Shown here: positions 28,875 to 56,500 of the stretch, piece after piece
Position numbering within the stretch: the stretch's first letter is position 1
Layout of the letters: every line of letters starts with the position of its first letter
Source: Marchantia polymorpha subsp. ruderalis
Lineage: Eukaryota > Streptophyta > Marchantiopsida > Marchantiales > Marchantiaceae
Reading direction: 5' to 3'
Length of the DNA: 64,000 nt
Assembly: GCA_037833965.1 (NCBI GenBank)
Contig: AP031351.1
Coordinates: 446,501 to 510,500, forward strand
Notes under the pieces: model-generated
The model's input: the letters and a program-made list of their open reading frames with translations, nothing else
Told to the model about the DNA's origin: nothing
Databases searched by the model: none
Position numbers and translations under genes: made by a program

Positions 28875-29364
28875 CTTGCTACGGTATCCCTACCATGGCC
28901 AATCACTTTTCTAGATTGGAATTTAAGACTCATGGTAAAACAGACTAGGCTTTGTACAATATACGAGAAATTGACGGTGCGATAGACGACTTATCTTGGA
29001 GAGGAAGAGTACTTCTATTGTTATTACTTCATAAGCTTATCTTCGCTTTTCCTAAGTTGCTGTGGCATAGTAACACATTGTTTTTAATAATGATACATTA
29101 TGATGGAATCCTTATTTCAATTAGAATTAGGTAGAATAAGCTTGAAAAATTAGTATTTGAAATTTTGAAACTATATCAGCGTTATGAGCTCCCCAAAAAA
29201 ATATGAATATATAGTGAAGAGAAAGGTTTATGGTTCTGTTATTTTTCCCCTCATGTTAGGACTTTGATTTCTGCAATATCTGGTGCAATGCATCAATTTC
29301 TAGTGCCAACTCAAGTTCTGGAAGCCAAATTTTGCCATGGATTTAGCATTTTGGTAGTGTCATA

Positions 29365-30506
29365 CAGAGTTAAACCTCCCAATAGTGTCAACTCTTTTGA
29401 ATGACATTCTCCCATTAGTGACATGAAAGTGTGGAACCATTAGTTTCTAACGTATAAATTTGTTCAATAAGAACCGTACGTCACTATTGACAATAGTGAC
29501 ATGAGAAGATTGAACAGTGACATGATGGAGCTTTAATGACTATCATAATTATCGAAAGTATCCGTTCATAACTTTTGGATTTAGAATTCTATTTTTTTTC
29601 TATGCTTCCATTGAGGTTGAATCATGATTGTAACTATATTATGAGAATATTGAATGCGCCAAATGTTAACTGCTCTTGTTATCATCTGCTAAATTTCTTT
29701 CATAAACGTCAAATATATGTCTAACAAGACAGGTCTCAAAAATACGTTGATGTTCTGATTTTATTCTCGGAGCATAAGTTAAGTAAGTGTGCTCTGAATT
29801 TCGCGATGAAACATATCTTATCGAAATTGATATCATTTTGCACATCATTTGTACAAAGGTTAATACAGGGTGGCATTAGTGCTAAATTTGATCCAAAAAC
29901 TTTGCATTGAGATAGTCCGAGTCATATAAGGGACAAATTGAAAAATAAAATTTCGATTAGAATCTTGTGCTCTTCAACCAGCTCAAATTTCTAAGTTAAG
30001 TGAAAAATGGAAAAATTCAATTTTGACAATTGATATTCATGTTGATTATAACCACCATTGTAATCTAGAGAGTTTTGCAAAATTTTGCAAAATTTACCAA
30101 GAAGAATTGGTTACTAATATTTCTTAAACGAGAAAAATTGCTTCTTGATTGAGCCATGTAATTCTTTGAGTAGTAAAAAATTTCTATATACAGTAAAGTA
30201 CAAAAATCTTAAAAATCTTATATAGTAGAAATTGCTGATATACAGGCAAGTACAAAAATCTTATGTATTGAAAATCTTCTCATCGTGAACATCGAATAAC
30301 TCTAATTTCAATTATCATTGTTGATATAAGTTCAAATTCGAACCGCCAAATGATCCGCTAAATATTTAGCGGATCTGCTAAACATGCAATAAGAATGTCT
30401 CCACATGATACACTAAATGTTATCCAACCTCGTGTGAGTGACACCTCCCAATAGTGACATAAAACTAAAGAACCGATGTATATCACTATTGGGAGGTTTA
30501 ACTCTG
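29365..30506. mobile_element. Non-autonomous pogo-type MITE, copy 1
   Basis: An 1142-bp element with perfect 23-bp terminal inverted repeats (start CAGAGTTAAACCTCCCAATA) flanked by TA on both sides (29363-29364 and 30507-30508), as expected of Tc1/mariner/pogo insertions. The right end repeats the CCTCCCAATAGTG motif internally and can fold back on itself. No transposase is encoded. Terminal and subterminal motifs match the larger element at 51736-55621, so that family probably mobilised it. A 24-bp perfect palindrome lies inside (30352-30375). Confidence 0.88.
30352..30375. repeat. 24-bp perfect palindrome in the MITE
   Basis: GATCCGCTAAAT followed directly by its reverse complement. The matching site in the second MITE copy is 43700-43723, where the half-site ATCCGCTAAA occurs once more immediately after it. 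Confidence 0.9.
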
Positions 30507-30682
30507 TATAAGGATCTAAGTAATTGGTCAACTCTAGCACGTTTTATTCGCTTAGACTTGTGACAATAGATTTTAAGTAATAAAATTATGAGTACTATTA
30601 TGTTTAGACTGAATTTCCCCTCTAACTACTAGTCCAGAAAGTAGGTTCAGATGTTAGTACATTCACTCGACCTACGACTCGC

Positions 30683-30879
30683 TTAGTTGCACAAACTTTT
30701 ACAAACGGCCGTACTGCCAGGTGTCAGGGTTCCCAATTTCTTTCTCCTCTTTCTTTCTTTCTTCATCCTCCCTTCGGGCTGCCCCGGATCAGCCGGATTT
30801 TATCTCAGTTTTGGGAACGGGGAGGCGGGGCACTTTGCGGGGAGGGAACGGGGAGGGCACTTTGCGGCAACCATGTAGA
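30683..30879 (+). repeat. Left end of the 11.5-kb block, inverted match to 41913-42211
   Basis: Three short blocks occur here and again, reverse-complemented and in the same outer-to-inner order, at the other end of the interval. They are 30683-30703 (19 of 21 matching 42191-42211), CACTTTGCGGGGAGGG at 30831-30846 (exact match to 41938-41953) and CGGCAACCATGTAGA at 30865-30879 (exact match to 41913-41927). Spacing differs between the ends (148 versus about 258 nt for the first gap), so these would be degenerate terminal inverted repeats of 200-300 bp. The region also holds a short direct repeat of CACTTTGCGG. Confidence 0.6.
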
Positions 30880-31237
30880 GGCCGCAACGTTGTATCTAGT
30901 GCGTTGCAATGATCTACGCCGTAACAATGATCGCAGTCGTGTCGTGGAACGTTGCGGAAAAAAGAACTAAAACTGAACTGCAAGAGGGATAGCTCAGATG
31001 GAATCCCTAATGTTCAGACTGTAATATTTGTAATGAAACGGTGATAACAAATTGAGGCGACGAAATTTTAAGCGGCAAAGATTAGGGTTTTTGAAAATAG
31101 AATCACATCAATATTCTCCAGCTCGTCGTTTCGACGTCGCTTTTGGGTGCCAGTGTCAGTGCTTTGAGGAGCTCGTGCCAGAGCTCGTGCTTGTACTTTT
31201 CTTGTCATTTCAGGTGCTTTTGCAGGTGTGGTGCAGC

Positions 31238-32537
31238 ATGGAGGCAGGATGGATTGTGCAGGACCCACCTTATGAAGGCCCTTTCAATTCGTTAATGTTG
31301 AATTGGTCAAATGGGACGGCCTACATCAAAAGCTCGAGGCTTAACGATTTTGTTTCGGGAGAGGGATCTTGTCATAGTGATGCGAAGACAGAATTTGTGA
31401 CACGTTGCTCATACAAGGGTGGAGGTACTAGGCACAATTGGGAATCGTATGCAATGTATTATTGCAAGTATGGTACTCCAGAAAGGGGCAAGAAGAGTAT
31501 GCTTTCCTCGAATTTTATTCAAGATCCATCAACAAAGGCAAAATTTGGTCCTGGCAGCAGGGATAGACTAGATCATGATTCGCATCACAAGGGCTGTCAG
31601 TGCAGGTTTAGTGCCATTAAACTGCTGTCTAATGATCACATTCCACCAGGAATCACAAAATTGATATACAAGCATAGAAGACACGTAAATGCTGCAGGTG
31701 TAGCTTGTCATGGCACATCGTGTTCGGATAGTGTTGGCTTGCCATCTCAAATGGCGCGCAATTTATCCTCTGAATGCAGGTAACGGCATATTTGTTACAT
31801 TTTCAATATATTTGTTTATCGTTCACAGTCAATCTCCCGTCATATTTGTAATATCTACAATAAGTTTGTTGTTATTACAGTTTGTAAAACTTTGACACTA
31901 AGCAAGCACGTTGTCTAATATTTTTTACGTTCTTATGCCAGGCTGTAACAGGCTGTAACAGGCTGATGTTTTTATCATCAGGCTTCCATGATTATGTATA
32001 TTCTACCTTACTATTTGCAATCTCTGCAAGATTTTTGGAAAAATGACGGTTTGGAGCTCTAACCAATCCTGTAAGAGATTATTGAACGTCTCAATGTGTG
32101 ATCAAAAAGCATCAAAGAAAAGACCAAGCGTGTTTTTCATACTCAATTGGTATGGCTAAAGGACTTTTTTGATGAAAATCCTAGTATGCTGAAAGTGGGA
32201 GAGCTAGAGCTCCGGCATTGCATTGGACGTATCAAGGAGTCTCACCAAGCATGGAGTACTGGTAGAATACTTCCTGTTGCAGACATGTGGCGTACATCCA
32301 TGCTAGATAAGGAAATTGAGTTGGCTTGAAAAATTAGCAGGCATTAAATGTCCTAAGCCACAGAGATTATTTGAAACAGGAGAAAGATTTAGAGCCCCTA
32401 CCGCAGATTTAGGAAAGGTAGAAGAAGGAGCTTTACAGCTCAGACTTCGAAAGTGCAGGCAGAAGGCCAAAAGAACTCGAAGTCTGATCAAGCAATTCCA
32501 TCAGGCAAGTGCAAATAGAGAAAAACGCAAAGAGTAA
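31238..32537 (+). pseudogene. Broken gene with Cys/His-rich domain, possibly transposase-derived
   Basis: The first exon-like part (ATG at 31238 to a GT donor after about 31780) encodes roughly 180 residues with paired Cys and His. It includes CSYKGG...HNW, YYCKYG and GCQCRFSAIKLL, then YKHRRHVNAAG..CHG. The spacing is loosely reminiscent of FAR1/MULE-type zinc-binding DNA-binding domains, but the match is weak. A second coding-like stretch (about 32040-32325) reads KSIKEKTKRVFHTQ and VWLKDFFDENPSML but carries three in-frame stops at its start. A third stretch in a shifted frame (32316-32537) is Lys/Arg-rich. The stops and frame change suggest a decayed gene, unless an unusual splice pattern rescues it. 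It sits just inside the left inverted repeat of the block. The family was not recognised with certainty. Confidence 0.45.
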
Positions 32538-34405
32538 CAAGCTAGAATTCTAGGAGAGACGATCGACTTGACTCTTTCTCCCTAAGTTGTTTGCTTGTGA
32601 TGCATAAATGTTGTTTCAATTTCATAGTAAAATGAAACCATTTTGTCCAATTCCACATTTAGCTGATTTGCATGCGCTGATTACAGTTTGGAAATTTACC
32701 ATGAACTCACGGTACACAAATTATTTGTTCAATGATGACAGTCAATGTTGCTAAGATGACGTTTCAAAATTAAGAAACTTGATTCTGCGTATTTTGATAT
32801 TATTGAGATCCAACTTTTGATATATTAATGAATGTATCTAAGTGCTACTCAAGTTATATTAAAGGTGTGTTGGAAGAGACGTCTCTATGTAAGGTCTTTC
32901 TTGTTGGAGCTTGTTGGATTGCAAGAAGACGCGCCATCAGCTTGGATATAACAGCTTGATATTCTTTAGTCAAAAGTCTTTGGAATTCCATGAGCTGGAG
33001 TCAGTGAAATGTGCAAGGATGAGAAGTAACTTACAGCACCAGTTAGATCTTGCAAGACTTGAGCTTAGAATGTGTGATCTTGCTTGAATATTGACCCTCA
33101 GAACTTTACTTGTTCATTGCATATAGATTTACTTAAATAATGGGAAAAAAAACTCCTGTTTGAAGTTGAGGAATTAATCCTATCCATATTTGGACATGCA
33201 CTTCACGTCTATATTCAATGACTGACCACAATAGTCTATTAGACTATAGAATAGTCTATATAGTCTATTGGACCATAGAATTTTTGGGTACACTTGTTAT
33301 GATGAGGTTCAGAGCATTGCACGTAAGTAGCGATGACATTCATTCGTTGCATCTTTCAAAAAATACAAACTTTTTTGAAAAAAAAGTCACGTACACAGTA
33401 AAATCCCACATGTTGTATTGCCAATATGTTGAAGTTGGAGATAAATTCATTCGATACCTGTCATGGTTGTATCTCTTAAAACTTTGATGTTCATTATTAG
33501 ACTGTATTGTGTATATTCATCTCATATGCTTCAATTCCGGCAAAAGTAAGTAAAACATTTTTTAAAGACAAAGGTGGGTATGGAATCACAATTGATGATA
33601 TTTCAGATGATAAAGAAGTTGTTAATATTTTGGCAATCGGACCTATTTTGACAAGTATGATATAATATCCTATTTTGAGAATAGGATATTTTTTCAAAAC
33701 TACCATATATGTAAAGCTAGGACTGAAATCGTAGATTTGACTATGAAACTCATGAAGCTAATATAAACCCATGAATTTGAATCCATGACTCTTTTTTTTT
33801 AGGTTTGAAATGAGAAAAATGTCGATTAGCCTGTCGAGCAACGAGTAGCCTGTCGAGCGTCTGCAATGCGCAAGTTGCATAAGGTTTGGTTACCTTTCAG
33901 CTCTCCTCTCGGTCGCCTTACGAGTGAGAAAGGAACATCCGGTGCCTTTACGAGAGAAAGTGAGTGAAAAAGTTCAGTTCGATATCGATATCATAAACAT
34001 ATTAATACGTGGATGTAATTGTAAAGCGCGTTTAGTGTCGGTCGTTTAGTGATGTAGTGTCGGTCGTTTAGTGTAAAGCTCTTTCATGCTCACGGTAGAA
34101 TTTCAAGCTTTTTAGTTTTTCTCTGTTCTCTTCTCTGCTCTTCCCCGTCTGAAAGTGCTTTTCATGTTTCGCAGGACTTCACAAAGAAGAAAATCGTTCT
34201 ATTGTGTCGATTTGTGTTGAAAGGGTTGGAAGGCGGTGGACAGCCCGAGCTTTTGCAGGTGGGTCACAGTTCTAGTACTGAGGTTTTTTTCCCATTCAAT
34301 TTACTAAAGGAAGTCAAACGATACTTATGCTCTTCAAGATTGCCTCGTTAGCATTCGCCGAATCATTCCATGATATTTACATTTTGAAACTTTATAAGTT
34401 CGCAG
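32538..34405. other. Intergenic, no gene recognised
   Basis: AT-rich with only short frames. Palindromic TAGTCTAT units cluster at 33230-33275. A short tandem repeat of GTGTCGGTCGTTTAGTG occurs at about 34033-34076. The CT-rich stretch at 34100-34160, followed by short exon-like sequence to 34260, could be the leader of the leucine-rich-repeat gene, but no signal peptide or N-terminal cap was found. Confidence 0.4.
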
Positions 34406-36560
34406 AGATCTAAGCTCAAACGGCTTAAACGGCAGCATTCCTGCCGAGCTTGGAGATCTAACCAGCTTGACGAACTTGTAAGTTTCAAGTATTGCCCGAT
34501 AGCAGCTGTGCCCATTACTTCCGTTTGATATGTTAGCGAAGCTAGAATAAAATCTTATGAGAATAATTGAGAGTAATCGAGAATAAACTCTTCAGCTTAT
34601 ACTGTCACATGCTGAGGTCGTTTCTCCAGATACCTATTTCAGTAAGCTCATGAATGTAGTTTCAGAGGCCTCCTGTGCTGAAGTGTCGTGGACTTTCGTC
34701 TGATTTCGAGTCAATCGAGAAAAGTGTAAGTGACTGTACTTAATGCGCAGAGATTTGGATACAAATTCCATCGAAGGGCCTATACCACCCAAGCTTGGAA
34801 GTCTTCTGAATTTTACACTCATGTAAGCAACTTCTTTCTTGAAACGATCTGAGAAACGACTTGAGTATGGCAAGCATTTCATTCCACAAATTTAACTACT
34901 GCGCTGTAGTAACTCACAGATGTTCGTGTTTGTTCATTTCACTGAGTGATGAATATAATCATAATAGCATGATTGGCATGTTTGTCAAAGATTCTCTTTG
35001 GAAAGTCCTTGTACACTTGGTACTGTATAGTATTGATGCTTTCAATTTTTAAAACGAGCAGATGATAGTTCAGAGACAGTGTGTGGACGAAACCATGGTC
35101 TGGGTTAACGTTCCCGCATACACGTCTGTTTTGGCAGAGTTTTGAGTAAAAACGACCTGACCGGAGAGATTCCTGATTCTCTTGGCAATCTTACAAAACT
35201 TTTAACGCTGTAAGTTGCTATACACCACACACTTATATTTCGTGAATATCTGTGCATTCTGAAAGAATAAAGTTCATTGTGGATTATAGGCATACGCAAT
35301 GTGTGTGCCGTCCTTTGCTCTGCAAAATGCAAAAGCATGTATGTGTAGGATCACTGAAAGAATAAGCCGCCCAAAGTAATATTTGATCAATGGTCCTTAT
35401 CTTTCAGCAAATATGAATACCTGTACTCTTTTGGTCGTTGTGAGCACAATCTGAACTGTCAGGATGTTTTAATGCAGTTCCCTTGACGACAATTTCCTAA
35501 CTGGTGATATACCAGCCAACATCTTCTCGCTTCCAGAGCTGGTTATACTGTGAGATTCTCTCCCATCCTTTTAAGATAGATGATTATGTTGTAATTTATT
35601 CTTAGAGTCAGACCATAGAAGTAAATCAGAACAGAAAATTGTAAATTGGATTGACGGTTTATTATAGTTGGTAATAAATAATTTGATCTAGGTTTCCTTT
35701 GTGGATAACGAGTCACAAACCATTACTGTTTAGGGTTTGTGTGTCCAGACTCAAAGTTCCGCCTGATAGTATAAGTCGATGTTCAGTTAGTAAACAATTA
35801 GGTAAGAGAGCACTCCTTGCAACTTATCAGTCTTTCAAGTACTTGTTCACACCTTTGGGGCTGTTGGATTACTGAGATGTCGGGGTGGGGATAGCAATCT
35901 AGTTAAATTTGAGTTGGAGCTTGAAGAGCATTCAAGGTAATGAGTGCTACACTGAAAGTTGTGACCTCAAGAGGATTGCTTAGTATCTACCTGAAGGTTA
36001 AATTGAGTGTAGGCAAGTTATGGCAAGTTTAACAGATTTCTGCTGCACTAGAGACATATCTCGAAGTGACCTATTTGGATCCTTTCAAATAATTATTTTC
36101 TAAATATAAAAGAGTTGTTATCAGAGACTTAAAACAGATTTTGAACGCAGGAAAGGGAAAACAAGGACTACAAGACCAAGACTGACTAATCTTCAGAACA
36201 AATTTTTAGAGATAGAGTGAACTCGAACTCATGCCGGAATCTACTGGACACAGATTCCTGCATATGGTTAAAGTCGCGTGCTAATTTGCGTTTGTGTGCT
36301 CTGCCAACAGAAAGCTCGACAATAATTGCCTGAACGGAACTACTCCACCCACTCTAAATAATTCTGGCACAATAGAGTAAGTGAATTATAGATCTGATTA
36401 CAATAGTATTGTCCTTCTAAGTGCGTCTATTGCAAACTTTGCCCTTGTAAGTTAACTACTATGTAAGACAAAGGTTTTAAATCCGAGTTTTGTCTTCTTA
36501 GATCCACTTATACCGGCAACTGCTTCAGTGACAGCAATACATCGCAGTCTTGCAAATGCG
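34406..36560 (+). pseudogene. Leucine-rich-repeat receptor-like exons, truncated
   Basis: Six exons join in phase: 34406-34477, 34751-34822, 35138-35209, 35478-35549 (each 72 nt, one 24-residue repeat), 36311-36376 and 36502-36560. Repeats read like L-D-L-S-S-N-G-L-N-G-S-I-P-A-E-L-G-D-L-T, the plant extracellular LRR consensus. One repeat per exon with phase-2 joints is the classic layout of plant LRR receptor kinases. The end, GNCFSDSNTSQSCKC, resembles the Cys pair that closes such LRR domains. No signal peptide, LRR N-terminal cap, transmembrane helix or kinase domain was found within 2 kb either side, so this is a gene fragment or an LRR-only protein. The repeats themselves have no stops and keep their splice sites. 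Capture into the surrounding repeat-bounded block is one explanation. Confidence 0.75.
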
Positions 36561-37119
36561 GTACGATTCATGTTTCTCTTCCAGCCATGAGCTTCTGTCT
36601 GACTATTAAAAGCACATATGATTTTAAAGTTTCTGTGAAATAGCTACAAAATCAGTTCGCTCTCCAAGTGACACTTGTCGTGGACGTCGAAGCCAGTTCA
36701 GATCAAAAGGGATCAATTTTTAAAAGACCAAGAGCCTCTGATTAAGAAATTTGAAACACCCGATATGTCTTGCCACTTTTCAGCTCAGTTGGCCCTGTGT
36801 GTGGGATCTGAGTGCAAGCTGTAAAGAGTGTACTTGTGTGTGTCCGAGCATATTTATCTGCATTGTTAGTTTCAACTTAGAAGCTTGAGAAGTTTGGAAG
36901 GGAGGTGATCTCATCTTATGGACTTTGTTCTAGGCCATTAGGAAAATGTGATTTCATGTGGATATATTTTATAATAAGCCTAACCGTTTCCATATCTCCA
37001 GCTGCTACAAGCTTGTGAGTGGATCCTCACCATGACAAGAAACCCATGTTAGAACTACAAAGTATTGTGCTGGATTCTACTAGAGAGTTCAAACTGAATA
37101 TACAGGGAAATGCAGGCGC
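36561..37119. other. Gap between the LRR exons and the C2H2 gene
   Basis: No coding sequence is recognised. It may hold the 3' end of the LRR transcript and the promoter or unrecognised first exons of the next gene. Confidence 0.4.
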
Positions 37120-39442
37120 ATGAGACGAGTACTTATGTCTGGTGTACTTACTGTACTGTATTGTTACTGTACTTACTTGGTGTACTTATGTCCTGAGCAG
37201 CAGAGCCAAGAGGAGGTTCAATTTTGGCGATCTGAATGGATGAAGGAAGCAAAATGGCGACTGGAGGACTACGACCACATGCAAAACACCATGTTTCTTC
37301 TGGAAAATGCCAAAGTAAGATTCTCCGACTCAAGATCAAACCTCATTTTAATCATGTGTTCATGGACATCCACCTAATTTGTAGCAAGGTACATACAATT
37401 TGTATCTCTTGTGATTTGCTCTATGTTCTTTGACATCAGATAATTGGAAGGCCGCCCTTAGTAGGAACATGAAGATTTTTATACAGTAATTATGGCACAA
37501 CACCAAGAGCACAGTTTGGGTGGAACTTCATTCAGTATCTTCAGGAATTTGTTGACTGAATACAATGCTTATTCGTATTGGTAGGTTGAACCTTGACACA
37601 AGACTCTTGTTGCGAGCCAGTGGTGTAGTGAGCGGTCATGGCGGAAGTATTTGGGGGCGAACTGGAATAGGCGATATTGGATAGGCACTATGCGAAGGTG
37701 CCACACGTCACCAAGGGCGGTAGACATAACTGGAAATGCCTACTGCAAGGTTGTCCTTTCCCAGGAACATTTTCCCAAAAAAATTATATCGAAAAGCATT
37801 GGAGGAAAGACCATGTGGACTGTCATCTCCAAATTACCCAGAAGCTTCCACCTGGACCAAAGACGACTGGAGTTTCCATGAAGGCTGACAAGAAAGAGTT
37901 GATTGACTCTTGTGACAAGCATTTTGGTAATTTCTGTCAACGTTGGATCAAGCACAAGCAAGATAAGTTGGACTTCTTTCGAGGCGAGGTATGCAATTCT
38001 TTTTTTGGCAAGTTTTTTTTTTCTATTTGCATTGTTTATTTCAAATTGAATTCAAGTAGACTTCCACAAATAATTTGAGATTTATTATGTTCAGATTGCA
38101 ATAACCGTATATATGTTGCAGAATTGACAGTTTGAGTTGTGTGTCTAGATTATTAAGGGGTATTTCGACCAAAAGATATATTCTCTAATGACGAGAGAGG
38201 ATATAGAAGAATTGGAGGAACCTCCAGTGATTTTGAGGGCTATGAGACTCGTATGCAAGAATTTCCTTCCAGGTTGGAACATGTTGAGAATTCCAGAGTT
38301 TTCAAATTTTGTCTTTGATCATCTTGACGAACTACTGGATCCCTGTAGGAGAAAGGCACAGTTCGTAGATTCTATTCAAGAGTGGGTGAAGGGAGAGCAG
38401 GCCAAAAACAGAAAGAGCAATCAACGGCGAGGTATGAAGAAGTCAGAGATTGACATTGACGAAGTTGAAGCCATGGAAGATCTTGTGGCAATCTTGAGTG
38501 CAGATGACAGTTGCAGCGATTTGAAAGCTGAGGCAAAAGAATGGATAGTATTCTGTGGTAAGTACAGTTGGATTGAACAATCCAACTGGAATCCATCTTT
38601 GGAATGTAATGAACAAATAATCTTGAAATTTCTAGATTATCTCTATAGTCCAACGGGCAGGAAAGCTAAACTTGATCTTGGAGAAACCGTTTTGAGAGGT
38701 GGAATGAAGCGCATGGCAGACTTGGGTATCATCGAAGATGAAGAGACAGCTCGGACAAAGGTCAGACATCCTTACTCCTGACGTAAAGATTTTCCAATTT
38801 GTAATGTTTATGTTACAATTACAGATATTGCAGTTTGGATATGATCTAAGAGTATTGTGCTTGTTATTTTTTTCAGGGTGAGATTTCAAAGTCAGCTCTT
38901 GATGAATCAGAGATGTATGGTTCCGTAGAGCACATACATCCATTTTTTATGTCTGTACATATATCACAGGAAGTTGAAAAGTGGGGAGCGAAGGTTGAAG
39001 TCAAGAGGATGGATGCAAAAAAACGAAATCTTCTCTTGGAGTGGGAAGCGAAGTATACGGCAGACGAACTTTATACGGCAGACGCCTCATATAAGATCCG
39101 TGTCAACACACTTGAAAACAAAGGGTCGGTAAAATGGGCTGTTGCTGCCAACAAGTGGTGGAATAAAGTTGAACTGTTTGCAACAGCGATGTCTCTTGTT
39201 AAGGATCTTAGCAAAGGACCAGAACGTGATCGCGGCGGGAAACGTGCAAGTAAGATCGTTCCCAAGCATTTTCTTTGAGCTTTAATTTTAACTGAAATAT
39301 GTTGTATCAAAATGATAATATCTGCGATTGGGTTGCTATTATTACAGATAGGAGAACTCGTTCTTCAGATGGTAACATGGATGTAAGCGTCAAGAGAAAG
39401 CCACCTGGTGAGAGGACACGACGTGCTAACATATGGCGATGA
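37120..39442 (+). CDS. Unknown multi-exon protein with C2H2-like zinc finger
   Basis: Five exons join cleanly in frame (37120-37314, 37671-37988, 38149-38760, 38877-39249, 39348-39442) into about 530 residues with GT-AG introns and no internal stop, so the gene looks intact. The start is uncertain: the first 27 or so residues may be upstream or intron sequence, and an acceptor near 37200 could join an earlier exon. Exon 2 encodes a single finger-like motif, W-K-C-x4-C-x5-F-x5-I-x2-H-x4-H, within about residues 75-110; it is two residues longer than the classical C2H2 spacing. The middle is acidic and helical-looking (EDIEELEEPP, DIDEVEAMEDLVAILSADD). The C-terminus is basic (NRRTRSSDG, VKRKPPGERTRRAN) and may be a nuclear localisation signal. 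A short internal duplication gives YTADELYTADA. The family was not recognised. A nucleic-acid-binding or transposon-encoded protein is plausible given the flanking repeats. Confidence 0.7.
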
Positions 39443-41912
39443 GTTGAAAGTCGTACGTGGACTTCGATACTGGTTAGTTTCACTTACAAAAGTCTTAAAT
39501 GGCAATTTTCATACTTGTTTTTTTTCCCACTCTACCTAGATAGGCTCCAATGTGGCTCAAAAGAAGTGGTATGGGGTTTTTTCTCCTCATTTCTTCCTTG
39601 TAGTTGGTGTACTTGTCCTACTTTCGAAGAGGAGGCGGATAATTATATGTATTTTCAATCGGTGTTTCAGATCGCTATGCTTTTGCTTCGGTAACCATGG
39701 TAGTGTAGTTGCTTCATTTTGGAACTCGAAATCTGCTGATGTCAGTCTGAACTGGATCCTTAACGTATGGTTATCCTTAACGTATTTATAAAATCACCGT
39801 TCTTGGATTCTGGGACGGTAGATCAGTATCTGATTATAATTTTGCTTTTTCTGATACAGCTTTTATGGTGCCAACGAAGGATGCAAGTGCGATGACAAGT
39901 CCTCATGCAACCCTTGCAATTGCAAATGAGAGAGAACAACTCCAATTTATGCTGTTTATATTCCACGAAGTCATCCTCAGTCGACTGAGGATGATGAGCT
40001 GTAGCGAAAGTTTTGCACATCATGTATGCAGTGGCTTTAGGACGCACTCATCACTTTCTGGAAGTTTGACTGTGCTTTCAGTTGACAGTTCACAGCTTTA
40101 GAGTTTTTGTATCGGAACAAAATTGGAATAGAGCTACATCGTGCACTACACATTAATTTTTCTGTACACTCGGATTTTTCTACCGTCTCAGACTTATTTG
40201 AATTATGAATTTGAAGCCTTGGAGGCTAATTTTGAATCTTTTTGTATTGTGAGATGTCAGCGTGGTTTTTAGTACCAGTTTGGTTCATGGAAGCTGTAAG
40301 TTAGGAGATAGTCAATCTACATGGTGGCACACAGGTCGAAAGCAAAAATATAGGGTCACATGAAAGGGAGAGAAACATACTCAACAAATCTAGCTCAATG
40401 ATAAGAGATACAAAGAAAAGGAATCGGGACTACCTTCTCCATAAAAAGTCATTTCTTGTTCAAACAATATCCCCCGCCTATTTCTGTGTGTTTATAAACG
40501 CAGAGATGTGAGATGTAATTGTGAAACATATAGCTCATTTTGTATTAACTGCTGTCGGATGAAGAAACTTACTGTATGTTCCGACCAATTTTAATTGATG
40601 TTTGAATTTTTTCATAGATTTGGATCAAACTTCGATTGCGATTCTGCTTTGTATCGCAATGTAACTTGATCATTGAACCTGACAACTGACAAAGGAAACA
40701 TGCATAGCTTGGTAAAACTCCTTAATATGTCACATTTTCATATCACTTGTAGGTGCTCTTCTTTCCGTCGTCGTGTGAAGGAAATGTATTTACCCTCCAT
40801 TCATTTAAAGGAGCAAGATCTGTTGCCCATATGAGGTCCAGGTAAATATCTGAACTTGTTACATCCGATTCCGTGTACGCTTGAAACGCTCATATACCCG
40901 AAATTGGAATCAATAGTTTAGATTCAACACTCGGTACTGTGGAATTTAATAGATGATCTATACTCTTGAGAGACGTGAAGTAGCACTTGTTCAGCCAGGG
41001 CGAGGAGTCTATGGTCTTCAGGTCATAGCAGGTTCATATCAACGGGTACAGTTTGTATAAATGTTACCATAGATCAGAAAAAGTGTCAGGAACTTAAAAG
41101 ATTGTCACTCTCTCTTATATCCATACATAAGAATAGACTAAGCTCAAACACGTCTCAGGCATCCTTTTAGTAAGAGTCTGGTTCACCGACATATCTCCCT
41201 TCCGTTCAGAAATTGAGCAAGAGACCTCGAAGATTATCAAAGAAGAAGAATTTTAATCAGATTTGGAACGTTGTTGTCAGGTCTCCATGTACCGTAATGT
41301 TGGACTTTACCTGTGACATAATTAATACTCTGCTGTAGATCATACTGAAACTGAAATGAATGTAACCAGATAGAGAGGACCCGTCAAGATATTAAATTCT
41401 GCACGCCTCCTTATTACCAGTTTTCTAGACAGAGTGTGACTAGCCCAGTAATACGTGTAGGGCATGAATCTCATATTTTTTCTGCTGTACATTTCACTCG
41501 GAATGATCTGATCCATCTGAGGTCCAAACTTTTGACCTCTCAAATAACCAGTTCTACAAACTCCTCGTATGCTCATAAATTATGGGCTTTGCAAGTTCTT
41601 CTTGGCAATGAAAATCTTCTTACAGAAGATACCCTCAATTCATGACTTACTGATCATGAGTGTTATGGACTTAACCAAGAATCTCAAGTGCGTTTTTTCT
41701 TTTGTAGCTTTAAGTACAGCACTTCAAGAATCGTCTCTTGTATATGCGAGTTGCTTTGGTTTGACCATCAGCCGGTCTTGATGTTGCTGGAGTGGAATCA
41801 AATATCGTCCTCTTCAGTGCATAAATTTGTTCTATACCAGTATACCGAGGAAGATAGTTTGCCCATTCCTGCCATTTTCAGATGAGTCATTCATTCCGTT
41901 GAGGGCATCCCA
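39443..41912. other. Intergenic, no gene recognised
   Basis: Probably the 3' UTR of the C2H2 gene, then AT-rich DNA with short frames lacking known domains. A 24-bp perfect palindrome lies at 39971-39994. Confidence 0.45.
39971..39994. repeat. 24-bp perfect palindrome
   Basis: TCATCCTCAGTC is followed directly by its reverse complement with no spacer. It lies about 530 bp downstream of the C2H2 gene stop codon, possibly within its 3' UTR. Confidence 0.92.
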
Positions 41913-42211
41913 TCTACATGGTTGCCGGGTCCGCCGACCCTCCCCGCAAAGTGTTCTTATAGTCCATCGTTAGATCCGTCTGCCGGAAAGCGGAGCGATC
42001 TAATTCAATCACTTTGATGCTCCACCGGAAAATTGAGTGCCAATGAAAAACCTGCCCGGTTAGCCTGCCCGCACAATCTTCCATCTTTGGTCCAAAAGAG
42101 GAGAGTCGCAGCGAAAAGAAGAACTTCCGTCACGGGTCACTGCATGATGACACACCTGCCTGGGTCTATGAAGGCCCTATATAGGAGCTATGTATAAGTT
42201 TGTGCAGCTAA
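41913..42211 (-). repeat. Right end of the 11.5-kb block, inverted match to 30683-30879
   Basis: Reverse-complement counterparts of the three left-end blocks: 42191-42211, 41938-41953 and 41913-41927. The end stops 8 bp before the second 1.79-kb repeat; on the left the gap is 17 bp. No 8-11 bp target duplication was found at these borders. Confidence 0.6.
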
Positions 42212-42219
42212 ACCCGTCC

Positions 42220-44013
42220 CTTGCTACGGTATTCCTACCATGGCCAATCACTTTTCTAGATTGGAATTTAAGACTCATGGTAAAACAGACTAGGCTTTGT
42301 ACAATATACGAGTAGAAATTGACGGTGAGATAGACGACTTATCTTGGAGAGTAAGAGTACTTCTATTGTTATTACTTCATAAGCTTATCTTCGCTTTTCC
42401 TAAGTTGCTGTGGCATAGTAACACATTGTTTTTAATAATGATACATTATGATGGAATCCTTATTTCAATTAGAATTAGGTAGAATAAGCTTGAAAAATTA
42501 GTATTTGAAATTTTGAAACTATATCAGCGTTATGAGCTCCCCAAAAAAATATGAATATATAGTGAAGAGAAAGGTTTATGGTTCTGTTATTTTTCCCCTC
42601 ATGTTAGGACTTTGATTTCTGCAATATCTGGTGCAATGCATCAATTTCTAGTGCCAACTCAAGTTCTGGAAGCCAAATTTTGCCATGGATTTAGCATTTT
42701 GGTAGTGTCATACAGAGTTAAACCTCCCAATAGTGTCAACTCTTTTGAATGACATTCTCCCATTAGTGACATGAAAGTGTGGAACCATTAGTTTCTAACG
42801 TATAAATTTGTTCAATAAGAACCGTACGTCACTATTGACAATAGTGACATGAGAAGATTGAACAGTGACATGATGGAGCTTTAATGACTATCATAATTAT
42901 CGAAAGTATCCGTTCATAACTTTTGGATTTAGAATTCTATTTTTTTTCTATGCTTCCATTGAGGTTGAATCATGATTGTAACTATATTATGAGAATATTG
43001 AATGCGCCAAATGTTAACTGCTCTTGTTATCATCTGCTAAATTTCTTTCATAAACGTCAAATATATGTCTAACAAGACAGGTCTCAAAAATACGTTGATG
43101 TTCTGATTTTATTCTCGGAGCATAAGTTAAGTAAGTGTGCTCTGAATTTCGCGATGAAACATATCTTATCGAAATTGATATCATTTTGCACATCATTTGT
43201 ACAAAGGTTAATACAGGGTGGCATTAGTGCTAAATTTGATCCAAAAACTTTGCATTGAGATAGTCCGAGTCATATAAGGGACAAATTGAAAAATTCAATT
43301 TCGATTAGAATCTTGTGCTCTTCAACCAGCTCAAATTTCTAAGTCAAGGGAAAAATGGAAAAATTCAATTTTGACAATTGATATTCATGTTGATTATAAC
43401 CACCATTGTAATCTAGAGAGTTTTGCAAAATTTTGCAAAATTTACCAAGAAGAATTGGTTACTAATATTTCTTAAACGAGAAAAATTGCTTCTTGATTGA
43501 GCCATGTAATTCTTTGAGTAGTAAAAAATTTCTATATACAGTAAAGTACAAAAATCTTAAAAATCTTATATAGTAGAAATTGCTGATATACAGGCAAGTA
43601 CAAAAATCTTATGTATTGAAAATCTTCTCATCGTGAACATCGAATAACTCTAATTTCACTTATCATTGTTGATATAAGTTCAAATTCGAACCGCCAAATG
43701 ATCCGCTAAATATTTAGCGGATCCGCTAAACATGCAATAAGGATGTCTCCACATGATACACTAAATGTTATCCAACCTCGTGTGAGTGACACCTCCCAAT
43801 AGTGACATAAAACTAAAGAACCGATGTATATCACTATTGGGAGGTTTAACTCTGTATAAGGATCTAAGTAATTGGTCAACTCTAGCACGTTTTATTCGCT
43901 TAGACTTGTGACAATAGATTTTAAGTAATAAAATTATGAGTACTATTATGTTTAGACTGAATTTCCCCTCTGACTACTAGTCCAAAAAGTAGGTTCAGAT
44001 GTTAGTACATTCA
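42220..44013 (+). repeat. 1.79-kb direct repeat, copy 2
   Basis: Same unit and orientation as 28875-30665, about 99% identical by eye. It is 3 bp longer owing to a GTA-type insertion near 42310. It abuts the right inverted repeat of the intervening block. Confidence 0.93.
42713..43854. mobile_element. Non-autonomous pogo-type MITE, copy 2
   Basis: Same 1142-bp length, same 23-bp terminal inverted repeats and same TA flanks (42711-42712 and 43855-43856) as the copy at 29365-30506. It occupies the identical site within the duplicated unit. Confidence 0.88.
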
Positions 44014-47455: not shown

Positions 47456-49676
47456 TATGTGGCTCTCCCACGTTATAACTTAGATTAGAACATGATGATT
47501 GTGTGCTGCATAGCAGTCGGGATTGATCTTATTAGGTCCGGGAAGTGTTTTGACTTATGTGCCATCAAGTACTTTTGTCCAGTAACTCTGAATGTTACCT
47601 GACAACAGAAATTATTATGAGTAGAAAAAATAAAATTGCTTTCCAAGCATAGAAAAATCAGGCGACGAAACTTATAAGAAAACAGCCTGCCAAATTTTTA
47701 ATCTTACGAAGGTCCACGTTATGTCGACTACACACCTTAAGCTTTTGCTTGCGGCAACGCCACAATCCTTTCCTCTCATCTACTTCAATCTCAGTCCCGA
47801 AAATCAGATTGATCACACACAACTTCTTCATTTAAGAATCCTGTCTCAGGTTTTTCAGTACAATCAGTTTTCCATTCAGACTAAGTAATGATCTCAGAAA
47901 TTATCAGAATCCAGGTCTTTCAATATCAGTCACCTCTCCTGAAGGTTTCTACAACACCAACACAGGACTAGGCTACGAACGTTATTGGTGTCGCAAAAAT
48001 TTCAATGTGATGTAACTGCATACATTATGAGTGCCGTATACTCTACTACCTTACCATGATTGTAAAAACGTTTCACCTTTCGACATCTTGGAGTAACTTC
48101 TCTTCATTCGAAAATAATGTATGTTTAGGCTGGATCCCACGTTTTCGAGATCCGTTCAGTGCCACACTTCGCAATTCCGACCGGTAACTCCGCCCAGACA
48201 AGTAGGTCGAGAAACCAATGAACTCTATCCGTGATGCCCTTCAGCTGCTTGTTCGACCTCGTAGTTCAGTCTTAATAACGTCAATAGGAGACATTCCCAT
48301 GAAAGGTACCTTAGAAAGCCGTCAACTGATACCTTGCAGTTGTATTTATACACGTCCCTGCTATCCAGCTGCTACAGGTGGTCATTCAGACAAAAACATT
48401 CTAGTGTATATCGTGAACACGTATATCGTGCACATCCACAACATAGCAGGTCAATGAACCTAGTGCAGCAACTGTGTGTCTGCCTTAAAAACGATGAATT
48501 AGTAAGGCACATGGAGATATCCTTTCCGACACTTTAAAAGTTCTGGTACATACAATATGCACTGTAGATCACGGGACGCGCCACCGTGAAAACATGAATG
48601 AATGGACTCTGACAGTAGGTTGAGATGCACACGATGTTGAAACGTTGAGGCTTTAAACGGCATCGATTTTGACCATGTCGAGAAGGAAAGACAGTGCAAC
48701 CTCCAACATGACGTTGAGGGTGGACATTAAAACTTGACAAATCAACACTCTGAGCGAAAAACACCTCTGGTAGCACATTGAGGTCAGATCATATACGGCT
48801 AGCGATTTCTTGCAGCAACGAATGACCTATTTGTAGCTCAACGTAGATAATACAACAGCCCTTCCTTTTGGTTTTTTCAGTTGAAGAAGTCCTTCGCTTC
48901 TTCAAAGAGCGTCATGTGCCTTCCTTACGAACAGTCAGCTCAAAAAGTAGTCGCCGTTGTCCACCACACCCTTGACTTCACGGGTCAATTGTCACTATGG
49001 AAAAACCTGCGCTCTGTCAGCTCTTCTGTAATCTCCAGTTGCCTTCAATCATCCGCATTTTTCCTCTGGCCTTCATCATACTGTTCCCTATATGAATGTT
49101 TACAGCGGAGTATGCTGTAGTGAAAGCTTCTGTCACTCCTAGAAAATCCGGAATCTGCTCTTGAGAATTAGGTAGCACTGACCTGGCAATCCTTCTCGTT
49201 GACCGTCATTTATCTCAGAGTAATATGGCAAGTCCTCAAGATACAGGAGAGAGCTCGGGCAAATCTAGGTCAGAGGCAAACCACCCATTCCTATTGCAAC
49301 CTTTGAGATTCTTTTTTAAGGGTTGGCTCTCTACAGTGCAGGTCGATAGTGATCATCGCCATAGACCACATTTGGTTTCTGTACCGAGCCTTTGGACTTC
49401 ATGTACAAAGTGTACTCACTTCCACAAGTGGATCGATAGAGGAGCAGAAAAAATTAATCCAGGGACTTCGGATTTGCGAATGTATTGCTGACAGCGGTTT
49501 CATAAGGTAAAATCAACTGTACACACTAATTCCCAAGAGTATCTCCATGATTCACCTCTAGTTAAGACAAACGATTGTCAAAGCTAGAACATTCTACTAT
49601 AGTCGTTCTATGTATCATCAGAATCAGCATATGATACTTCGGTGTCTTTGTCCACATGCACACTAATTCACCGAGA
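47456..49676. other. Intergenic, no gene recognised
   Basis: Short frames only (for example 48218-48457 plus, 48534-48776 minus, 49225-49491 plus), none with a recognisable domain. The last few hundred bases probably hold the 3' UTR of the LSD1-like gene. Confidence 0.45.
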
Positions 49677-51733: not shown

Positions 51734-51838
51734 TACAGAGTTTCACCTCCCAATAGTGTCAACTCTTAGGAGTGACAAATATTTGCCACGTGCTTCTACA
51801 TTTTCAACAAAATTATTCCAGTTCACCGACAGAGTTCA

Positions 51839-53520: not shown

Positions 53521-56500
53521 ATTTCAAAGCAAGTAAACACCTTACAAATTATTATTCAGAGCCTATCAAGTGAGAATTGCAAATTTGATACAGTAATTAG
53601 AATTGCAAACAATCTAGATCAAATCTCATGTAGTTGTTTATAATTGTGAAAGTATAATTGCATAAATCAGTCACTGAAGTCAAATTAACATAATTTATTA
53701 TCATCAGAGTGTCTGGGAACCAATTCTCTCAAATTTTTATTGATGTATCAACGGACGACAAGCTCTTTGAAGATTAGAAATTGAATTATCTTGAAGATCT
53801 ATAGGTAAAGATGACTAAGTGGAGAAGAAGTTAATCAAATCAGTGATGGCTCTATTTGCTTGCTCAATTGTAACCGGAGTTGATAGTTGGACAATATCAT
53901 CATACTCTGAATGACTCGCACTTTGTAGTAGGTTGTGATCTTCAAGTACAGACTTGACGATGTCAATATTATCAATATTGTCATTGCCAATAGTATCAAG
54001 AGCATCTATTTCAATTAAATTCTTAGCAACTTCTTCAATACTTGCGTCATCAATACCAAGAGAACTTGAGAAAAAATCATCGAGTTGAATTTATTGCAAA
54101 ATTTCCACTAGATCATCTATCGCTTGATTTGAGCCTATAACAAATCTATCAAAATCTTGATTACAATTCACCTGAGAAATGACACAGAGACAATTGGCTT
54201 TCACAAAGCATCTTTGAACGGTATTCTCCTCGAAATTATCTAATGTTGACTTGATTCAACCAAGCACATTGCGAAAATATGTATGATCATTAATTAGAAA
54301 TTGACAATGAGGTGCAGGTTGAGTCGCGTGCTAGAGTTCATACTAAGACATCAAGTGGTTTTGTTGAGCAAGGCAAAAGTGCGCTTTGAAAGACCGAATG
54401 ATTCCTTGATTAAGAGTTTGACATTGGTTAGTAACATTCGGTGAAAAAAAATAATGCACAAGTTTTGAAATCGGAAAAAAGTTTCCTCTGATCTGATGGC
54501 TCCAAAATCTTCTACGCGCAAACATGAGATGAGCAATTATCTTGCAGTATATAGAAGACGATGTTTTGATTCTTGGCAATCTTGTTGTACTTGTGAAGTA
54601 GTCACATATAAGATGATGTATCTTGCCATGCTTTAGGTTCATGATCATAAATAATTCCAAAACTCTTACTAATATCTGGAATATGTTTCAAAGCCCGTGG
54701 ATGAGCACTCTTTGTTTAAACTTGAGTGATAAATGTCTCACTTGAAGCGCTTACTCCGAGCGTAACGGTGATTTTATCTTTGCTTTTCTTGACACCTCGA
54801 CCATTTGAATTGGCTGTGCAGTATGACTGTGGTGATGTTGTGCGATGTTGTAAAGCCGATTCATCAATGTTGATAATACATTCGAATGATACATCAATCA
54901 ACGCTTCACAAATTTCATGTAAACGTTTTTCAACCTGAATAAATTTGAAGTTGTTATGCTCTCCGCACTCCTTCACACTAGATGTTGAGACGCGTTTCAG
55001 ATATTTTTCCAGCCATGCATTTGAAGCAATAATTGGCTGAAGATGAACAATATTAGATGATTTCAAACATTCTTCAAAGTGATTCACAATCTTGTCTCAA
55101 AAAAACAAAACCTTGTTCTTTAACACCTTTCTAGTCACGTTCAGCGAGGGCGCATCAACCTCAACGCGCATATGTCATTGATGCACCATGTTCGTAAGAA
55201 TTTGCACTCGAGTTAATCTAAAAATCATTTTAACCCCATCTCTTTTTGATTCCAATGCCACCTGCTTGATAACTTCTCTTTGCATCCAAATTTTTGAAAG
55301 AGTTTGACGTGCTATCAACAATGCTAATGTTGCTTCATCTTGAGTGACTCCAAGTTTACTGAGAAAATTGAGCACCTCCAATTTTGTCTTGACATCCAAA
55401 CGCTTACCCTTAGACATTGCAAAATAGTCGTCAACCTTGAAAATGAGAAAGAACGCGTCAAACAATGAACTTGGAGAAGTTTGTGGCTCACGTGGATCAC
55501 TTTTACGTGTAACTCTACAGTTCAAACCCTGAACCTACGAAACCTCCTCTAAGTGACACCTCCAAGTAGTGACCATTAACTGTAGGACCGGTATGTGTCA
55601 CTACTGGAAGGTGAAACTCTGTAGCTCACTTTCTAATTGTAGTCCAAGCAAGGCATTGCATAGAATCTAGCCTTGTTCGATCTGTATCCAGTACCTGCAC
55701 TCGCTGCACCCTGGCATTTTTGAAGGATCCAGATCTATGAGTCTCACTACACAAATTTTTGGAACATTATGATACAAAATATCATTCAAATCAAATCAAC
55801 ATTAATTGATCATCATATAATATTATGGATTTGTACCCATCGGCATGACATTGATGTTGAATGCTGCAAGGCCCTTCATGCTAAGTAGTTTTGCCTGAAC
55901 GAGGCTAGGAAGCCGATATTAAGTTTGATGTATATTTGCAGTAACTTGTAGATCATACTAATCATAATGTTGTACATTAGGTGGTGCCATGGCTACATGT
56001 TTCATCCGTTAAAGCTTGATTTGAGACGGTCATCAATTGGATTAAGTACCTCGATAGCAGGAAATTTAGATCGTCATTAAATTCAAGATTGCAGAGATCC
56101 ATTAAAGCTCGCATCATATGTGTACACTTATGATAAAACACACGTTTTAGGACTTTGCGATCATGTGTAGTCGATGAGGTCCCATAGAGTAAAACAAAAA
56201 TTGATATGTCTCATCAAGCAATTTAGGTTCCGATTGAATTCCATCAAGTAAATACATTTAAAAAAATATCATCAATGTTGAAAACAGTTTGCCATAATTA
56301 CACTTATCATCTTATTTTTTTGAAATTGGATATGTCTTTCATTTCAATCTCACATCACAAATTATATCATTTGTTTATCTGATGTAATTTGTTTTGGATT
56401 TGTAAAATCCACTTAACAAGTAAATATGTTTATATGTAAAAACATGATTTCAGACGTATCTATTTTAAGTCCTTTAATCTCATTGATGTTTGTTGTATAT

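Follow-up and report, generated by a model that had tools for sequence, protein, structure and literature searches.

The window analysed here, a stretch of 64,000 nucleotides of Marchantia polymorpha subsp. ruderalis (contig AP031351.1), holds an 11,545-bp block framed by two direct repeats of 1.79 kb. Self-comparison of the window (the first-pass annotation of this DNA had proposed one of 28-45 kb) shows a single long direct pair around the block, 28875-30665 versus 42220-44013, with 99.16% identity over 1,794 columns (12 substitutions and a single 3-bp gap), and so bears out that annotation's description of two same-orientation copies about 99% identical. We refer to the repeat copies as U1 (28875-30665) and U2 (42220-44013), and to the sequence outside them as P and Q, respectively. 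The features of the locus are as follows, with the basis of each in brackets.

28875-30665, + strand: direct repeat copy 1 (U1), duplicated flank, whose first bases are t = CTTGCTACG (99.16% identity to 42220-44013)
29362-30510, no strand given: a transposon of about 1.15 kb, older and unrelated, that ends in perfect 26-bp terminal inverted repeats and is nested in U1 and U2, edges approximate (genome copies matching unit positions 484-1642)
30666-30674, + strand: 9 bp CTCGACCTA that separate U1 from the element, taken to be the original target duplication d, and in a rival explanation filler (junction reading)
30675-42219, + strand: Mutator-like transposon copy of 11,545 bp, both termini intact (family ends, sister copies)
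30683-30703, + strand: left terminal inverted repeat, with inner blocks at 30831-30846 and 30865-30879 (sequence alignment)
31238-31783, + strand: Cys/His-rich 5' exon of the transposase gene, with its ATG at 31238 (the same exon heads the gene in sister copies L031 and L025)
32102-32537, + strand: remnant of the 3' exon or exons of the transposase gene (matches the reading of L031:594-1109)
33859-37005, + strand: cargo stretch carrying LRR-like exons (absent from both sister copies that were compared over their full length)
37638-39442, + strand: accessory (second) gene of the family, several exons, end approximate (translations of the window copy and L025)
42191-42211, - strand: right terminal inverted repeat, with inner blocks at 41938-41953 and 41913-41927 (sequence alignment)
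42220-44013, + strand: direct repeat copy 2 (U2), with no gap after the right end of the element, then GTGTGCTGA (alignment to U1, junction reading)

The terminal inverted repeats consist of a 21-bp pair of 90% identity (BLAST E 9e-5) together with exact, colinear inner pairs of 16 and 15 bp, which confirms the three inverted, colinear short blocks described earlier at 30683-30879 and 41913-42211. The best local alignment of the inverted ends, which takes in the two inner blocks, has a score of 48, whereas 300 shuffles reached 38 at most. These repeats are short and patchy, and not of the long classical type.

Reading from the left, the sequence GATGGG is followed by U1, which runs CTTGCTACG...ATTCA, then by the 9 bp CTCGACCTA and by the element itself, CGACTCGCTT...AAACCCGTCC, the right end of which directly meets U2 (again CTTGCTACG...ATTCA). 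Block and left repeat are therefore 9 bp apart, and block and right repeat 0 bp, in place of the 17 and 8 bp given in the first-pass annotation, and the endpoint of the duplication falls exactly at the element end, with U2 beginning one base past it. The right-hand 9-mer t is also the first bases of U1, and CTCGACCTA, when looked for after U2, was absent there. The window copy has intact ends, yet its left and right flanking 9-mers are dissimilar, in agreement with the earlier remark that no short target duplication could be found. A second CTCGACCTA lies on the opposite strand of the window at 48203, which we take as chance, and a comparison by eye of the 9-bp stretch with the left end of the element gave nothing firm in the way of templated filler.

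A multi-copy Mutator-like family and its genes

The block at 30675-42219 belongs to a multi-copy family of Mutator-like (MULE) DNA transposons, and its borders and length are placed where they are by the ends of sister copies and by their target duplications. In a search of the genome (241 Mb, 9 contigs), the left edge gave at least 39 other matches among the best 40 of 158 candidates, each beginning at query base 1 to 5, and the right edge at least 38 others among the best 40 of 131 candidates (self included); 39 of these 40 extend to query base 616 or beyond out of 620, and one ends at 290. A pattern search for the end motifs allowing at most one mismatch found 102 right and 140 left motifs, and none with reversed control patterns. 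The pairing of ends drew on 100 of the 102 right-motif places and on 95 left-motif places out of 100 listed (of 140 counted), five of the six in a cluster at C5:16637xxx having been omitted, and 37 of the 39 remaining pairs were checked for a target duplication, C7:22981932 and C7:19763593 being left out. The resulting tally covers 59 other copies, from three sets of 10, 12 and 37. Fifty of them carry a perfect 9-bp target duplication and four a near-perfect one (three at 8/9, one of 10 bp); one is partial (C6:30969738), one has a duplication of 36 bp (C7:22957260), and three have none (C4:10192318, C4:14153131 and C1:4700111).

Together with these 9-bp duplications and the terminal inverted repeats, the family has a MULE transposase domain in a sister copy: one exon of L031 (C2:11540253-11553364) matches the Pfam MULE domain PF10551 (E 2.5e-12, above the cut-off), and this exon has at least 150 matching stretches in the genome, distant and broken ones among them. 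The Mutator-like reading first proposed for the inner block stands, on the strength of sister ends, 9-bp duplications and MULE domain, and with its LRR-like cargo the block is a candidate Pack-MULE. The element represents a new family or subfamily within this known superfamily, and not a new kind of mobile element.

The window copy is non-autonomous. Relative to its sister copies it has two deletions, at 31942/31964 and 32102/32115, and it lacks the MULE-domain exon. The Cys/His-rich gene noted at first as broken is indeed broken, and can now be identified as the 5' exon of the transposase gene (31238-31783), which has no Pfam match of its own, with the MULE exon missing. What had been called an intact C2H2 gene is the accessory gene, and in the window copy it is not intact: a TAG stop occupies codon 11 (37668-37670), where L025 reads through. 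Both genes of the element are therefore broken here, the transposase by deletion of its core and the accessory gene by this stop. One exon of the accessory gene has 81 matching stretches in the genome, and the exons of this gene against Pfam gave a best E of 0.049 and no family match. This gene is kept in many copies of the family; we assume that it could be an accessory factor as in other MULEs.

The cargo stretch at 33859-37005 recurs elsewhere as large pieces at 97-100% identity and smaller ones at 89-96%. Its LRR-like part has a set of short matches elsewhere at 66-80%, and no near-identical parent outside the family came up in that comparison. The exons once described as truncated LRR exons are LRR-like in sequence, however their Pfam score falls under the cut-off (E 0.036).

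Copies of the family fall into size classes of about 6.8 kb with the transposase exon, about 8.3 kb with the accessory gene only, and 12-13 kb with both. Two copies of 10,842 bp and two of 12,318 bp are equal in length, unlinked and flanked by different target duplications, which suggests a recent burst. One subfamily has a further left-end motif, oriented like the first, some hundreds of bases short of the right end (for example C5:28410003 beside the right end at C5:28410585), a recurrence that the window copy does not have. Two further copies are unusual. Inside L154 lies an inverted 685-bp copy, 99.3% identical, of that element's right end together with 122 bp of its right flank (C9:18091010-18091694 versus 18094248-18094930); 11 bp of element sequence recur on either edge of the inverted piece, which resembles a repair patch or the outcome of alternative transposition within the element. 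In the copy L086/L087 (C7:22917051 and 22957260), the one with the 36-bp target duplication, the ends lie 40 kb apart; its left end is clean, and its right end is 4 bp short.

The 1.79-kb unit and the age of the duplication

Among the best 40 of 524 candidates scored, the 1.79-kb unit has 72 genome matches, of which only U1 and U2 span the whole unit; the other 70 all lie inside unit positions 484-1642, and the outer parts of the unit are found at the window locus only. Since its outer parts occur nowhere else in this set, the repeat is flank and not element, and since matches elsewhere are confined to the nested transposon, the unit was a flank that already carried this older element when it was duplicated. 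The nested transposon has many copies in the genome and is probably TA-flanked, and fragments related to it lie elsewhere in the window at 51734-51777 and 55541-55623. Long repeats in the flanks of other family copies were found in none of ten with 9-bp duplications (3 kb examined on each side), except for one weak 62-bp match (73%), and in none of the three without a target duplication (1.5-2.5 kb examined).

On these grounds, namely outer parts seen at one locus only among the candidates scored and the lack of such flanks at the 13 other copies compared, we rejected both an LTR pair and the idea of an undescribed element ending in 1.79-kb repeats. The first-pass annotation had listed an LTR pair among its options and had seen in the block the best candidate for an undescribed type of large mobile element; neither survives the comparison, in which the repeats do not recur with the element. 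Its proposed genome-wide search with the unit gave a divided answer, the outer parts being found here only and the middle 1.15 kb being multi-copy.

U1 and U2 have diverged by 0.67%, or about 0.33% per copy. Over 5,706 compared columns the window element shows 31 changes private to it (27 in 4,458 columns against eight copies, 4 in 1,248 against nine), a count that is an upper bound on change since insertion because the nearest relatives are not in the compared set. On the right side, where L038 was left out owing to a deletion, the window copy has the most private changes of nine sequences (range 10-27). These dates are compatible with a single event, without showing one.

Origin of the flank duplication

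Considering that the ends are intact and that 54 of the 59 other copies have a 9-bp (or near) duplication, the dissimilar 9-mers of this clean copy are abnormal. At about even odds (a probability of roughly 0.5), we regard the flank duplication as the product of alternative transposition, in which a hybrid of two element ends takes the place of the two ends of one element. The element would have begun as an ordinary insertion at the right edge of a single 1.79-kb flank, P-t-b1-d-[element]-d-a with d = CTCGACCTA, and the ancestral single-U site would have read ...ATTCA-CTCGACCTA. A transposase supplied by a sister copy may then, in the course of replication or after it, have brought together the left end of one sister chromatid and the right end of the other, and the hybrid pair would have inserted at t (CTTGCTACG), 1.79 kb leftward on the re-joined chromatid. 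The chromatid gaining DNA would read P-t-b1-d-[element]-t-b1-scar-a, which is the observed order: t-b1 would be directly duplicated, the old d would stand beside the left end and the new t beside the right end, and d would have been lost at the excision scar after the second repeat copy. In the window t is present at the start of U1 and beside the right end, and d beside the left end only; the loss of d at U2/Q is an assumption of the model.

The reading starts from what the DNA displays directly (the borders, the family and its 9-bp rule, the non-matching 9-mers, the junction sequences and the rarity of the flank duplication); from these we infer the hybrid-end step, the chromatids involved, the order of events and the scar. 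In the hybrid insertion of P elements, a hybrid of two ends inserts close by and rearranges its flanks; the direct-duplication geometry given above is our own derivation, with a counterpart among P-element products. Exactly 9 bp, the length of the family's target duplications, separate U1 from the left end, and the excision joint of the model falls at U2/Q, where d is missing. Moreover, the copies at C4:10192318 and C1:4700111 combine intact ends and dissimilar 9-mers with no long repeat, as would be expected, judged by sequence, of putative reciprocal deletion products. The direct duplications with non-matching target duplications described for Ac and hAT elements (PMC3744419) and the alternative transposition proposed for the MULE VANDAL21 (PMC12312487) serve as precedents. 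A mirror-image hybrid insertion was rejected, as it predicts zero bases between U1 and the left end.

Against alternative transposition, direct duplications are assigned in the Ac/hAT work to reversed-ends transposition with two elements (PMC3744419), the scar must take away the 9 bp of d on the left side and nothing more, which is a coincidence of its own, and the oddities on C9 and C7 look more like repair products. The last point leads to one-ended insertion, a tentative and on balance unlikely account, in which transposase joins only the right end, at CTTGC, strand-displacement synthesis over 1.79 kb makes U1, and a 9-bp filler joins the left end, so that the repeats are an oversized target duplication and the ancestral site would read ...ATTCA-GTGTGCTG... 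without CTCGACCTA. It accounts for the clean right end, for the extra bases at the junction of U1 and left end and for their absence after U2, and the C7 copy with its 36-bp duplication, clean left end and trimmed right end gives it some support. The polarised differences between the repeats also lean this way: of seven sites, U1 carries the derived state at five and U2 at one, while the last is ambiguous, its change being private to U1. Such a balance of derived changes, 5-6 to 1, hints that U1 was made by error-prone synthesis and counts if anything for one-ended insertion. However, seven differences are too few to decide, the 6:1 split is not significant and adjacent changes may represent one event; the exact 9-bp length of the extra stretch would be chance, and within the literature that our search covered no 1.79-kb synthesis of this kind in DNA transposition was found. 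Alternative transposition and one-ended insertion thus each need one small length-9 coincidence. By a doubtful extension of the latter, MULE integration would proceed one end at a time, with the other end completed by long strand-displacement synthesis and end joining, and the 9-bp, 36-bp (C7) and 1.79-kb duplications of one family would come from this repair-coupled second route. An aside in the first-pass annotation, that the repeats might be a huge target duplication or repair-linked, comes close both to our best explanation and to this main rival.

Crossing over on homologues between allelic family insertions 1.79 kb apart, one at t and one at d, would also yield a recombinant flanked by duplicated U, with the P-U-element-U-Q layout and dissimilar 9-mers, and family copies are about 98-99% alike, which is sufficient for recombination. 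It predicts CTCGACCTA after U2 though, where it is absent, and would need an extra polymorphism or deletion exactly there, so that we think it improbable. The unit could instead have been duplicated in tandem beforehand by an unrelated route, with the element arriving later at the junction. Tandem duplications with short filler are common and the dates do not forbid this order, but an insertion exactly at the junction and the loss of a target duplication of the sort present in 54 of 59 other copies make it highly unlikely. Misassembly, to which long repeats and a multi-copy 11.5-kb element might give rise, seems more remote still, given that 12 substitutions and a 3-bp gap tell U1 from U2, that the contig spans 31.6 Mb and that both junctions fall at exact element ends.

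If the reading as alternative transposition is true, a flank duplication made by a MULE has been preserved in an assembled genome, and the MULE superfamily joins the P and Ac elements, for which the reaction is best known. With a family of this size and recent date, population genomes could show directly how often such products arise, and the same measurement would serve to choose between the two mechanisms.

Comparison with known systems

Similar to other MULEs, including Pack-MULEs and the short-TIR VANDAL type, the family has a MULE domain (in a sister copy), 9-bp duplications, cargo resembling gene fragments and a second gene beside the transposase; it differs in that its terminal inverted repeats are short and patchy and its second gene is without a Pfam match. 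Our literature search, of partial coverage, returned no account of this family or of a direct duplication made by a MULE, which is weak evidence of absence.

Ac and hAT elements form direct duplications with non-matching target duplications (three among 7,611 maize hAT insertions), assigned to reversed-ends transposition with two elements, and the products listed for sister-chromatid transposition in maize are inverted duplications and deletions (PMC3744419, which also names hybrid element insertion by P elements). The window copy resembles the Ac/hAT case in a direct duplication that abuts the element end and in a middle element without a matching target duplication on one side; however, Ac/hAT involves two reversed ends and each repeat is headed by an element, whereas in the window a single element stands between the two repeats and U1 has no element at its head. 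Hybrid insertion by P elements is alike in the nearby insertion of a two-end hybrid with rearranged flanks. The P element belongs to a different superfamily and is known from active genetics, whereas ours is a footprint in sequence.

Within the MULEs, alternative transposition has been proposed for VANDAL21 in Arabidopsis met1 plants, with the statement that VANDALs had not previously been linked to it (PMC12312487), and in citrus CitMule_ARR has dissimilar 9-bp flanks beside a 2-Mb deletion, for which its authors reject alternative transposition (PMC4334395). Both resemble the window copy in having MULE ends at rearrangements, and CitMule_ARR shares with it the dissimilar 9-bp flanks. VANDAL21 is a head-to-head pair with somatic changes and CitMule_ARR accompanies a 2-Mb deletion, in contrast to the window copy, which sits in a 1.79-kb direct duplication in an assembled genome.
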